In this document: in pieces, positions 1-41,353 of the stretch
Position numbering within the stretch: position 1 is the first letter of the stretch
Layout: every line of letters begins with the position of its first letter
Origin: a virus
Length of the DNA stretch: 41,353 nt
Reading direction: 5' to 3' (one strand)
Virus record (IMG/VR): IMGVR_UViG_3300022851_000006
Location: 1-41,353 of that record
Program-made: the position numbers and the translations under genes
The notes under the pieces: generated by a model
Seen by the model: the letters and a program-made list of their open reading frames with translations, nothing else
What the model was told of the DNA's origin: nothing
Database searches by the model: none

Positions 1-732
1 TTTATTGAACCTAACATCTTAGAAGATTGCGTGTTCTACGAAGATGGGATTGCTGTGGGTTTTTATATTAAAAAAATGCCTAAAAAAATGTGCAAGTTGG
101 CGGACTTAGCTGATAACTTGCTAAGGACTAAAGATGTTCCTAAGTCTGAGATGAAAAGAGCCCCAACGGACGGGGTGGATGAAAAAACAGGAAAATATAA
201 ATATAAGAATGTTGTATTACAATATTCAACAATCATAGGAAGCATCCCGCCCAAACCCCATATGAAAAGGGATTACGCTGGGCGTTCTAGTGTGCACGGC
301 GTTAAGTCAGCACAACCTTTTATAAAAACAATGTTGCTCCTCGCCAATGAAAGCGAGATTTTGATAAAAGAAATCTTGCCAGAACAACACAAAGCACAAT
401 TAAAATTATTTGAGCAAGTTGATCAAAAATGGAGATTCGGCAATATTTGGACTAGCTCTATTTCAAATTATAATATATCTGCACCATTCCACAGAGATAC
501 TGGCAACATAGTTGGTGCTATTAATGTTATTATAACAAAAAGACTAAACTCAATTGGTGGCAACCTACACGTACCTGACTATGGAGCTACTATGGATAGT
601 GCTAATAATTCAATTTTAGTTTATCCAGCTTGGAAAAATATACACGGAGTAACACCCATCATACCTACTTTCGAAGGAGGGTATAGAAACTCTTTAATAT
701 TCTATCCTCTCAAAGCATTTGTAAATAACTAA
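1..732 (+). CDS. 2OG-Fe(II) dioxygenase, phage TET/JBP-like (3' part; gene starts at 41167 across the circular join)
   Basis: The reading frame is already open at base 1. Joined to 41167-41226 it gives a 263-residue protein starting MKRIDLIKISH. The C-terminal half has the double-stranded beta-helix iron site: H184-R-D186 in APFHRDTGN, H235 in IHGVTPI, and 2-oxoglutarate-binding R249 in YRNSLIFY. The GGNLHVPDY stretch between them matches my memory of phage TET/JBP oxygenases, which oxidise 5-methylcytosine or thymine in DNA. Context agrees: a ParB-like gene lies upstream, terminase small subunit follows after 1 nt, and a C5-cytosine methyltransferase is encoded at 33579-34577. Seen: the HxD...H...R spacing. 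Inferred: a DNA-base substrate. Another 2OG oxygenase role (protein or nucleotide hydroxylase) is possible. Confidence 0.75.
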   Translation, partial: FIEPNILEDCVFYEDGIAVGFYIKKMPKKMCKLADLADNLLRTKDVPKSEMKRAPTDGVDEKTGKYKYKNVVLQYSTIIGSIPPKPHMKRDYAGRSSVHGVKSAQPFIKTMLLLANESEILIKEILPEQHKAQLKLFEQVDQKWRFGNIWTSSISNYNISAPFHRDTGNIVGAINVIITKRLNSIGGNLHVPDYGATMDSANNSILVYPAWKNIHGVTPIIPTFEGGYRNSLIFYPLKAFVNN

Positions 733-733
733 T

Positions 734-1204
734 ATGACAAAGAAAAAACCAAAAAGTGAACATAAAAAGGAACTTATGAAAATAGAAAGAAAAAATGGGA
801 GACCTACAAAACACGAAGTTAGATATAAGGATGCTGGTAGACCACCTGCAATTACTCAAGATAAGGTCAATCAATTTAAGACGGCTTTTGGGAATGGGCT
901 AACAATAGATCAAGCTTGTATTTTCGCGAACATATCAAAACAGACTTATTATAATCACGGCAAAAAGAACCTAACTTTCTTTGACGAAATGGATGCTGTG
1001 CGTAAGCGTGTTGATATTCAAGCTAAAGTCAATGTTGTGAAGTTAATTAAAGATGGTAGCTATGAAGCTTCTAAATTCTGGCTAAGTACAAAATGTAAAG
1101 ATGAATTTAGCTTGAGGACTGAGACAACGGGTAAAGATGGGCAAGAGTTAAATTATACATCTATTAAAATAGTAGATGGTAAAGAGACAATAGAATTGAA
1201 ATAG
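734..1204 (+). CDS. terS: Terminase small subunit
   Basis: 156 residues. After a Lys/Arg-rich N-terminus comes a helix-turn-helix at about residues 55-75 (GLTIDQACIFANISKQTYYN) and the C-terminal KDEFSLRTETTGKDG, a wording common in phage small terminases. It would recognise the packaging site and load the large subunit. It begins 1 nt after the dioxygenase stop, so the two are probably cotranscribed. The large subunit lies unusually far away, beyond an ~800 bp gap, whereas terS and terL normally touch. The family assignment rests on the HTH, length and position. Confidence 0.75.
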   Translation: MTKKKPKSEHKKELMKIERKNGRPTKHEVRYKDAGRPPAITQDKVNQFKTAFGNGLTIDQACIFANISKQTYYNHGKKNLTFFDEMDAVRKRVDIQAKVNVVKLIKDGSYEASKFWLSTKCKDEFSLRTETTGKDGQELNYTSIKIVDGKETIELK

Positions 1205-1301
1205 TATATAACGGGACGTTGCTTTTTTAGATTGTCAATAGATTTTTAGTAAAAATCAAGATATTTATTTAAAATAAATGCAAATAAATTTATTATATGT
1301 A

Positions 1302-1329
1302 TTGACATTATAAAATTGATGAGTAAAAT
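1302..1329 (+). promoter_or_regulatory. Sigma70-type promoter in the terS-terL gap
   Basis: TTGACA (1302-1307), 16-bp spacer, TAAAAT (1324-1329). The -35 is perfect and the -10 matches 5 of 6. Transcription would start near 1336 and run first through the structured gap, then into the secreted-protein and terL genes. Confidence 0.65.
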
Positions 1330-1394
1330 TTGTGATGCGGATTAATTACCCGTGCTATTCAACTTTTTCGTTGTGTATTCAAGGCATTTGTGAG

Positions 1395-1410
1395 GTGGTA
1401 GAAATACCAC
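1395..1410 (+). ncRNA. GAAA-tetraloop hairpin inside the candidate RNA
   Basis: GTGGTA (1395-1400), GAAA loop, TACCAC (1405-1410): a perfect 6-bp stem with a GNRA tetraloop. The left arm plus loop recurs at 1497-1509 without the matching right arm. GNRA loops are typical tertiary-contact elements of large structured RNAs. Confidence 0.5.
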
Positions 1411-1784
1411 TTTACTTCTAGTTTTGATTAAAAAATAGCAATAAATGTCGTGAATAATACATAGCGAATATCAAAAGAAATATGTGTAGAGTTCTAGTGG
1501 TAGAAATACAAGAAACTTACTCGGATTATTCAAATCGGCTCTTTTTCTAATTAATTAAGCTCTATTCGTAAAAAATGATATAACAAGTTTTTTAAATCTT
1601 GTTAGAAACCTTGAGTGCTATTTGTCTGGTATTCTAGGACTTAGTGATGTGAAAGCATTGACCGTTGGGTATGACACAGTAAAAGCACCGCCAACCTGCT
1701 TGCTATTGAAAAACTATAGTTGTGAGACAAACCTATCGTTCTGAGACGTTGACCTTGACTCAAAAACAAGACAATTCAAAAAAT

Positions 1785-1813
1785 ATAGGAATTCCTCTAG
1801 TAGGGATTCCTAT
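1785..1813 (+). terminator. Strong 12-bp hairpin, possible 3' end of the RNA
   Basis: ATAGGAATTCCT (1785-1796) pairs with AGGGATTCCTAT (1802-1813) around a 5-nt loop, with one G-T pair. No clear T-run follows, so it may cap a stable RNA or act as a processing signal rather than an intrinsic terminator. Confidence 0.5.
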
Positions 1814-2020
1814 GTCTAAACATTGCCTTTAGCCTAAAAACATTAACATTTAAACTAATAAATAAGATTACTAAGTTAGTCAACTTAAGTAATTATCTAA
1901 AATGTATTTATTAGTTGAAAATCAAATAAAATTTCAAATAGATTAACAAAATATTAACCCTTGATTTTAAAGGTTTAAATGCCTATGCTTCATCGCACGG
2001 TTAAAACTTTAACAACAAAT

Positions 2021-2191
2021 ATGAGATACATAATTACAACAATATTAGTTTTTTTCTCTATAAATGCATTTGCACAAGTGCCATACTACAAAGAGCGTAT
2101 TGAGGACGGCAAAGAATGTCGTTATTTCTATTCTGGGGTTCAAAATGGACAAGAACAATTAGTAAGTGTTCAATGTTGGAATGCAGATTGA
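2021..2191 (+). CDS. Small exported protein
   Basis: 56 residues starting MRYIITTILVFFSINAFAQ, a short signal peptide with an AFA cleavage site, followed by a 37-residue mature part with two cysteines (KEC and QCW) that could form a disulphide. An in-frame ATG at 1979 would add 14 residues ahead of the signal peptide; I prefer 2021 because it puts the basic residue directly before the hydrophobic core. Its end overlaps the terL start. Function unknown; a periplasmic or superinfection-related role is only a guess. Confidence 0.55.
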   Translation: MRYIITTILVFFSINAFAQVPYYKERIEDGKECRYFYSGVQNGQEQLVSVQCWNAD

Positions 2192-3458
2192 AATAAACAA
2201 AGAAAACTTCTTACCCCATCAATTTAAATTTCTTCAATCACAGAAGCAAATCCTAGCTTTAGTTAGTGGCTTTGGTGCTGGTAAAACCTACGCTTTCCTG
2301 CGAAAAACATTAATTCATCATATAATAAATAAACGAAAAGATGGCTTGTCAAATGGATGGATAATTTATCCAACTCTTGATCTTGCAAATGAGTTATTTG
2401 TTGAAGATTTTAAACTATTACTAGAAAGTTTAGGGATTAGTTATGAATTTAATATCGCAAGAAATAGATTTAAAACTAAATATGGTAATATTAGGATATA
2501 CACACTAGAGCAACCTAACCGAATGGTGGGTGCAAATTTAACATATGTGGGCTTTGATGAATTTGATACAGTTAAAACCTCGCAAGCTATGAAATGTTTT
2601 CAAAAAGCAATAGGGCGACTAAGGGGCAATGATAAAACACAGCTCTATATCGTAACAACCCCCGAGGGCTATAAAGCGACATACAAAATCTTTGTTGAGA
2701 ACCAAAAACCATCACAAGAAATAATCCACGCTAAAACAAGCGATAATAAGTATTTGCCAGAGACTTTCCAAAAACTATTGGAAGAGCAATATGATGAAAA
2801 GTTATTAAAAGCTTATCTTGGCGGACAATTTGTCAACTTAACTTCTGGCAGTGTCTATTATGCTTTTGATCGTGAAATACATATTGCAAAAGATGAGATG
2901 GTTCCTTTAAATGGTTTTCCAATCAATATTTGCTTTGATTTCAATGTTTATCCCTACTCTGTGAGTTGGTGCCAAACTTTGGCAGATGATAATATAAGAT
3001 TTTTGGGCGAATGGGTTAGCAAATCACATTCAAACACAGAGGAAGCTTGTCTTGAATTAACAAAACTATTGTCAAAAGATGCTGATGTTATAATATACGG
3101 TGATGCTTCTGGCAGAAATGGTTCTGCTAGTAGCAATGTTACAAATTATCAAATAATTGATGCAATTTTCAAAAATTACTTTAAAAGTGTAAATTATAGA
3201 GTGCCGACTGGCAATCCCGCTGTTAAAGATAGATTAAATTGTGTTAATGCAAAATTAGGTAAGAACCATATTAGATTCAATCCCTCTTGCATCAAATTGA
3301 TCCAAGATTTGGAGCAAGTAACTTGGAACGAGAAAGGCACGGAGCTGGAGAAGAGCGATATTGCAAGAACACACTCAAGCGATGGTGCTGGTTATTTTAT
3401 ATGGGCTGAATATCCTATTCAAAATTTAAGAGAAAAACATAAAACACGGAGTTTATAA
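2166..3458 (+). CDS. terL: Terminase large subunit
   Basis: 430 residues. ATPase part: Walker A GFGAGKT (35-41), Walker B VGFDEFD (118-124), coupling segment VTTPEG (about 153-158). Nuclease part: CFDFN (256-260), YGDASG (311-316) and the third acidic position in RTHSSDGAGY (401-410), the usual acidic metal-binding triad. It pumps DNA into the prohead and cuts it. The start may be 2166, overlapping the upstream small gene by 26 nt, or the ATG at 2181 (MQIEINKENF). The portal gene follows after 1 nt. Confidence 0.92.
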   Translation: MFNVGMQIEINKENFLPHQFKFLQSQKQILALVSGFGAGKTYAFLRKTLIHHIINKRKDGLSNGWIIYPTLDLANELFVEDFKLLLESLGISYEFNIARNRFKTKYGNIRIYTLEQPNRMVGANLTYVGFDEFDTVKTSQAMKCFQKAIGRLRGNDKTQLYIVTTPEGYKATYKIFVENQKPSQEIIHAKTSDNKYLPETFQKLLEEQYDEKLLKAYLGGQFVNLTSGSVYYAFDREIHIAKDEMVPLNGFPINICFDFNVYPYSVSWCQTLADDNIRFLGEWVSKSHSNTEEACLELTKLLSKDADVIIYGDASGRNGSASSNVTNYQIIDAIFKNYFKSVNYRVPTGNPAVKDRLNCVNAKLGKNHIRFNPSCIKLIQDLEQVTWNEKGTELEKSDIARTHSSDGAGYFIWAEYPIQNLREKHKTRSL

Positions 3459-21428: not shown

Positions 21429-21978
21429 AATTATATTACCGATAATAGTATTTACATTATTAAGTGGTAATGCTATAGCTAAAATTAATTTAGCAATTGG
21501 CACTTCTATTTCAATTGTAAAAACTAATGATAAAAATTTTAAAAATATTAGTTTTCAGGATCAATTACAACCAACAAGTTTAAATTTAGGAGTAAATTAC
21601 AAATTGCCTGAATCTCAATTCATTTTAAGTTTTTACACTAATAGATTGCTCAATAAACCTCTCACTAGAGTAGTTAAAAATATTCGCAATGGCAGTTTGT
21701 ACCAAACACAAACAAAACTTACCTCTGACTCTTTATTGGCTGGTTATCAGCTAAATAGGGTTATTCCTGCTTTTGTTATAACAAAAGTTAAAGTAAAGAG
21801 TCATATTATTAGTAAAAATGCTATTTTAGCAACTAACACAAACCGTGCTTTTGTTTTTGGTTTAAATTTAACTTATTTTATTAATAACAAGTTTTCAATT
21901 TCGACTACTTTTCTTTTGCCTAATCAAAAATTAGATTTAGAATCAGGTTTAATTTTTGGCGGTTACTACAATTTTTAA
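21418..21978 (+). CDS. Outer-membrane beta-barrel-like protein (Lom-like position)
   Basis: 186 residues. A signal peptide (MNYKIILPIIVFTLLSGNAIA) is followed by alternating hydrophobic strands and a final segment SGLIFGGYYNF ending in Phe, the classic C-terminal signal read by the BAM machinery. A phage-encoded barrel in this place recalls lambda Lom, which alters the infected cell surface. Barrel fold is inferred from pattern only. Confidence 0.55.
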   Translation: MNYKIILPIIVFTLLSGNAIAKINLAIGTSISIVKTNDKNFKNISFQDQLQPTSLNLGVNYKLPESQFILSFYTNRLLNKPLTRVVKNIRNGSLYQTQTKLTSDSLLAGYQLNRVIPAFVITKVKVKSHIISKNAILATNTNRAFVFGLNLTYFINNKFSISTTFLLPNQKLDLESGLIFGGYYNF

Positions 21979-25037: not shown

Positions 25038-25066
25038 ATTATATTCATTAAGACTCTAGTTGTCAA
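25038..25066 (-). promoter_or_regulatory. Perfect consensus sigma70 promoter
   Basis: On the minus strand TTGACA (25066-25061), 17-bp spacer, TATAAT (25043-25038), both boxes perfect. It lies about 30 nt ahead of the HNH gene start and would drive the 25009 to 23268 gene group independently of upstream genes. Confidence 0.85.
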
Positions 25067-41166: not shown

Positions 41167-41353
41167 ATGAAGAGGATTGATTTAATTAAGATCTCTCACA
41201 ATGTAAAAATGGGGCAAGAATGCCCATTTATTGAACCTAACATCTTAGAAGATTGCGTGTTCTACGAAGATGGGATTGCTGTGGGTTTTTATATTAAAAA
41301 AATGCCTAAAAAAATGTGCAAGTTGGCGGACTTAGCTGATAACTTGCTAAGGA
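41167..41353 (+). CDS. 5' part of the TET/JBP-like dioxygenase (continues at base 1)
   Basis: The gene begins at ATG 41167 (MKRIDLIKISHNVKMGQECP), and after 20 codons enters the 127-base duplicate of the window start. See the entry at 1-732 for the enzyme. Starting 6 nt after the ParB-like stop, it shares that operon. Confidence 0.8.
   Translation, partial: MKRIDLIKISHNVKMGQECPFIEPNILEDCVFYEDGIAVGFYIKKMPKKMCKLADLADNLLR
41227..41353. repeat. 127-base terminal duplication of the window start
   Basis: Bases 41227-41353 equal 1-127 without a mismatch. The length equals a common assembler k-mer, so it most simply marks a circular contig. The true virion DNA may be circularly permuted and terminally redundant. 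Confidence 0.9.

Follow-up and report, generated by a model that had tools for sequence, protein, structure and literature searches.

A candidate noncoding RNA gene in the terS-terL slot of a phage genome and a recurrent hairpin at its predicted 5' end

ROOL, a large noncoding phage RNA, forms a homo-oligomeric nanocage. Many GOLLD RNAs exceed 800 nt and are often found near tRNA islands (PMC12286853), and manA RNAs are annotated as cis-regulatory (PMC2864571). The locus described here lies in IMG/VR virus record IMGVR_UViG_3300022851_000006, whose full 41,353 nucleotides constitute the window that we analyzed. The original prediction had likened a long interval between the terminase genes of this virus to GOLLD and ROOL on the basis of its size and setting. 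A cmscan search of the window gave no Rfam match at the gathering score, and nothing of relevance was found in the gap at E<=10. The GOLLD and ROOL models had no match, whether the whole window was searched at the gathering score or 1150-2200 at E<=10; group I and group II intron models had no match at E<=10, and we found no tRNA, tmRNA, or tRNA island in the window. Without a model match or a tRNA island, and with about 150-190 nt of structure, the locus does not bear out the comparison with GOLLD and ROOL. The interpretation as a structured RNA itself retains support from a plus-strand promoter, plus-biased folding, and a 5' hairpin that recurs elsewhere.

A direct terminal repeat of 127 bp (window positions 1-127 equal 41227-41353; 40-127 by alignment and 1-45 compared base by base) indicates that the genome is complete and maps as a circle of 41,226 bp. 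It carries terS, terL, and head genes together with a leftward early module that includes ThyX, a YqaJ recombinase, DnaB, and a cytosine methylase. Genes are tightly packed apart from the gap at 1205-1978, which at 774 nt exceeds every other gap (the runner-up is 350 nt) and whose longest listed open reading frames (ORFs) reach about 40 codons. This noncoding insert is flanked upstream by terS (734-1204, plus strand; PHROG 4102, E 1e-15). At its downstream end is a small signal-peptide-like ORF (about 2021-2191, plus strand), identified by tblastn with a protein of the relative L338 (E 3e-19), which lies directly 5' of terL (2187-3458, plus strand; phrog_2, E 6e-33). The small ORF matches no PHROG family and is conserved in the relatives L002, L003, and L338. 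Thus, the roughly 800 bp proposed to separate terS from terL exist as a 774-nt gap, but the gap does not abut terL, because the small ORF intervenes.

We compared this slot with that of relatives, defined as viral contigs found through terL. In L002, only a few dozen bases lie between terS and the small ORF, so that the slot is nearly empty; in L338, two small ORFs occupy it, and L003 has at least the second of these. Because this position in relatives is close to empty or is occupied by protein genes, we regard the gap as a replaceable insert. A search of the gap for remnants of the L338 or L003 slot ORFs found no similarity, and we rejected a degenerate protein gene from the slot on this ground. 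One further contig (L001/L097) is a piece of the same virus, identical over 8,233 bp, and therefore gives no comparative information. Apart from this fragment, no homologue of the whole RNA was found in scans of viral contigs or in BLAST searches of phages and plasmids, the latter returning no significant match. A covariance model of 1332-1470 searched against hairpin-bearing loci and the terL relatives gave a best non-self score of 26.5 bits (L432), which was driven by a shared 15-mer. Two other kinds of candidate marker were discarded. The core words CGTTGGGTATGACAC, AAAAGCACCGCCAACC, and GAGACGTTGACCTTG gave chance matches, nearly all coding, apart from the same virus, and the GAAA hairpin GTGGTAGAAATACCAC, tried as a family signature, occurred in at least 119 stretches that were generic hairpins, terminators, and coding palindromes rather than homologues.

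The promoter proposed for this interval was found at 1302-1329 on the plus strand as TTGACA-16-TAAAAT, a sigma70-type match at 11 of 12 positions with a predicted start at about 1335-1338. It is the sole match of at least 11/12 on the plus strand of the genome (41 kb), and promoters of this quality are present in 4.6% of mono-shuffled gaps. On the minus strand, consensus promoters occur at 25066 (12/12), 27702 (12/12), and 37858 (11/12) in the leftward early region. That region also contains several noncoding gaps of 140-250 nt, possibly further small RNAs or regulatory regions.

The strongest structural signal in the insert is a long hairpin arm of 102 nt at 1367-1468 on the plus strand, composed of helices 1367-1381/1451-1468, 1383-1389/1443-1449, and 1390-1400/1405-1415 and capped by a GAAA loop at 1401-1404. 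Its folding energy is -35.1 kcal/mol compared with -15.8 in shuffles (z -6.3 on the plus strand, reached by 0 of 400 shuffles, and -2.2 on the minus strand). The GNRA hairpin with a repeated arm that had been noted at this locus is indeed present: it is the GAAA-capped hairpin at 1390-1415, which forms the tip of the much longer arm in the minimum-energy fold, and its 5' arm GTGGTAGAAATAC occurs again as a second exact copy at 1497-1509 (plus strand). The AGTGGTA of this copy could pair alternatively with the 3' arm of the GAAA hairpin. The larger region 1337-1691 has a z of -4.5 on the plus strand versus -0.3 on the minus strand; among 52 other segments of the phage, z ranged from -4.3 to +2.6, and one of the 52 came near the value for 1337-1691. 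A coding segment at 21451-21805 (plus strand) folds with z -4.3, about as far beyond shuffles as the candidate RNA.

Other parts of the predicted architecture proved weaker. Structure in 1469-1691 (z -0.16) and 1692-1782 (z +0.26) does not exceed that of shuffles, and the middle part of about 310 nt (1469-1782) folds no better than chance. A large, ornate structured RNA is therefore upheld for about 150-190 nt above chance and not for the full length of about 480 nt. The suggested long-range closing helix pairs 1337-1363 with a 3' strand at 1664-1691 (plus strand) at p 0.8-0.9, but the helix forms only with a start near 1330 and gives way to other pairings if the start is set at 1205. The helix is also incompatible with the local 5' hairpin described below, because 1337-1340 would pair with either 1350-1353 or 1688-1691. 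The final hairpin, described before as 12 bp, was recovered at 1783-1815 as a 14-bp stem of AUAUAGGAAUUCCU and AGGGAUUCCUAUGU, with z -4.4 on the plus strand and -3.0 on the minus strand. This hairpin is not a canonical intrinsic terminator, because it lacks a U tract on the plus strand; a processed or stabilized 3' end is possible. Taken as a whole, the original prediction was partly confirmed and largely real, with the closing helix and the structure of the middle as its weaker elements.

About 8 nt downstream of the promoter lies a small hairpin, GCGG-AUUAAUUAC-CCGU (1337-1353, plus strand), whose core CGGATTAATTACCCG (1338-1352) recurs in noncoding regions of unrelated phage contigs. Its CGG-AUUAAUUAC-CCG is itself in a noncoding region, the longest open frame across it having 32 codons. 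We scanned viral contigs for two words covering this hairpin, GCGGATTAATTACCC and CGGATTAATTACCCG, and obtained matches that were not random. In a test devised after the first matches, 24 of 37 non-redundant copies of CGGATTAATTACCCG fell outside ORFs of at least 100 codons, compared with 2 of 134 for three control words taken from the same RNA, whose composition is unlike that of the hairpin (Fisher p 8e-18). The second word, scanned later, led to the same result; it overlaps the first, so some contigs are common to both scans. Complementary flanks beyond CGGATTAATTACCCG were also enriched (p 6e-9). Among the noncoding copies, the first outer position is paired in 21 of 24 and shows all four Watson-Crick types, a covarying pattern, while 15 of 24 pair at the second; in the window, the outer arms of the hairpin form two G-U wobbles followed by a mismatch.

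Many copies of CGGATTAATTACCCG belong to a three-way junction of 60-75 nt located shortly after a TATAAT-like box (contigs with the AUUAAUUAC loop include L446, L452, L428, L439, L453, L420, L437, and L443; L433, L441, L444, L387, L406, L388, and others extend the set). L439 scored 34.4 bits against the int-alpA model RF02996, just short of the cut-off of 35.8. Because L439 alone among those tested scores int-alpA-like, the family as defined in Rfam is perhaps too narrow. Near-threshold manA matches (cut-off 55.2) were found at L404 800-1002 (minus strand, 52.8 bits) and L381 768-969 (minus strand, 53.2 bits), and in both the 5'-most stem is CGG-AUUAAUUAC-CCG. The L404 contig also carries five tRNA genes. 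In addition, the AUUAAUUAC hairpin occurs inside the phage tRNA arrays of L432 (3169-5431, 9 tRNAs) and L454 (419-3979, 18 tRNAs). These arrays have long, structured-looking spacers in which the hairpin stands shortly after tRNA-like sequence, and one tRNA in L432 is called Pyl by ARAGORN (CTA anticodon), possibly a suppressor tRNA. At about 8450-8910 of L384 (minus strand), two successive AUUAAUUAC hairpins are followed by a noncoding stretch of about 180 nt closed by GCGGCACTG/CAGTGCCGC; this region has no Rfam match.

In the Rfam consensuses of int-alpA (gAcgu) and manA (GAcg), the hairpin sequence is variable, and the AUUAAUUAC loop therefore looks like an exchangeable module and does not appear to define a family. 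In our literature search, no paper was found that names the AUUAAUUAC loop in the context of phage RNAs, and int-alpA appears in one paper, as an entry in a list. CGG-AUUAAUUAC-CCG differs by two central bases from CGG-AUUAGAUAC-CCG, the 16S h24 (790-loop) hairpin seen in L416 and L418 (Deinococcus and haloarchaeal 16S). Judged from sequence, this likeness may be due to chance or, possibly, to ribosome mimicry. As a tentative and rather doubtful idea, we suggest that a portable 5' hairpin, CGG-AUUAAUUAC-CCG, caps otherwise unrelated phage RNAs (int-alpA-like junctions, manA, tRNA-array RNAs, and the terS-terL orphan) and may serve as a docking site of one common infection factor.

Based on these observations, we propose that the gap is an RNA gene which the phage carries as a moron-like insertion in the terS-terL slot, with its own promoter and a product that probably acts in trans, a reading in which we place about even confidence. 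The RNA would most likely measure about 130-480 nt, with transcription running toward terL. We infer that the sigma70-type promoter would start a plus-strand transcript at about 1336. The 5' end of this transcript would fold as the small hairpin with the AUUAAUUAC loop, a putative portable module of several kinds of phage noncoding RNA, and the GAAA-capped arm would come next. The RNA block may end at the 14-bp hairpin or earlier, past the arm. The RNA would then act in trans, with the exposed loop of the 5' hairpin and the GAAA arm binding a protein or RNA partner. Expression of terL presumably does not require it, given that the insert is missing from relatives. Against an RNA gene are the middle part, which is as unstructured as its shuffles, the lack of a canonical plus-strand terminator before terL, and the weak outer pairs of the window's 5' hairpin. 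The searches that found no homologue of the entire RNA and no int-alpA or manA match also count against it, as does the one other phage segment with a similar folding z.

The main rival to an RNA gene is a cis-acting leader, which we consider possible but on the improbable side. The promoter at 1302 would then be a late promoter driving the small ORF, terL, and the head genes, and the RNA would be their long 5' leader. The promoter has the same orientation as terL, and no canonical terminator separates the RNA from terL. The GAAA hairpin at 1390-1415 followed by TTCTAGTTTT would be an attenuator, with read-through controlled by the arm copy at 1497-1509 or by the 5' hairpin. This combination of hairpin and TTCTAGTTTT scores as terminator-like, no further terminator-like site occurs on the plus strand from there to the small ORF, the repeated arm offers an alternative pairing, and the cis-regulatory annotation of known manA RNAs fits such a role. 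However, the U tract after the hairpin is interrupted, the minimum-energy fold absorbs the hairpin into the tip of the long arm, and the same operon is expressed in relatives that have no insert.

We think it unlikely that the gap is a spacer or a decayed insert, in which AT-rich sequence left behind by lost genes has acquired a promoter by chance and contains a small number of stable hairpins. The slot does hold ORFs in relatives, the middle part folds no better than its shuffles, and the core is flanked on either side by long AT-rich stretches (1230-1330 and 1815-1980). Yet the slot ORFs left no trace in the gap, the long arm combines its extreme z with strand asymmetry, and the recurrent hairpin stands directly behind the only strong promoter on the plus strand. 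Less probable still is a palindrome-containing element acting at the DNA level, for example in packaging (pac/cos) or replication. The location between terS and terL would suit such a site, as would AT-rich dyads at 1225-1315 and 1849-1920. Within the latter, a hairpin at 1853-1916 is equally stable on both strands (z -2.9 and -2.6) and is itself probably a DNA-level dyad or spacer. The main arm, however, is strongly biased to the plus strand, unlike a DNA palindrome; GC skew has its turning points near 23 kb and 39 kb, away from the gap; and the element is absent from relatives. Finally, a very divergent small-subunit rRNA fragment, suggested by a colinear order of motifs seen by eye against the 3' half of 16S (e.g., GGATTAATTACCC resembling the 790 loop GGATTAGATACCC, and AAGAAACTTACT resembling AAGAACCTTACC), was rejected as having a negligible chance of being correct, since RF00177 had no match in a direct search of the whole genome, an 11-rRNA profile gave z of -0.1 to 2.1, no better than an unrelated 16S 401-770 control, and pairwise alignment scored no better than shuffles.

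If the insert is transcribed as the proposed RNA gene, it would add a previously undescribed RNA gene to the phage repertoire, at a site where related genomes have protein genes or next to nothing, and RNAs would therefore be cargo there too. Moreover, the recurrent hairpin connects several phage RNA families of unknown function and could be used as a single pull-down bait for their binding partners.

Compared with the described systems, the candidate RNA shares with GOLLD its phage setting and a GAAA-capped stem but differs in scale and surroundings, as the gap totals 774 nt, the likely RNA is at most 480 nt, no tRNA is nearby, and no model matches. Similarly, it resembles ROOL as a large noncoding phage RNA of comparable size range, whereas the window has no ROOL model match, no tRNA island, and no sign of a dense multi-helix fold. 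The int-alpA RNA is also a short noncoding RNA of phage contigs, and CGG-AUUAAUUAC-CCG can form its second hairpin, downstream of a TATAAT-like box, as in L439. Nevertheless, RF02996 has no match in the window, direct search included, and a constrained local fold of the window lacks the int-alpA P1-P2-P3 junction, with no P1 that encloses the hairpin together with a following stem in the way seen in L446, L428, and L387. The candidate RNA has no P1 helix, greatly exceeds int-alpA in length, and is situated between terS and terL; the loop of the int-alpA consensus is not fixed. For manA, whose model RF01745 has no match in the window, the remaining structure is unrelated to that of the window; the likeness lies in its being a phage or marine RNA and in the 5'-most hairpin of the L404 and L381 RNAs, which is the same CGG-AUUAAUUAC-CCG that stands at the predicted 5' end of the terS-terL candidate.
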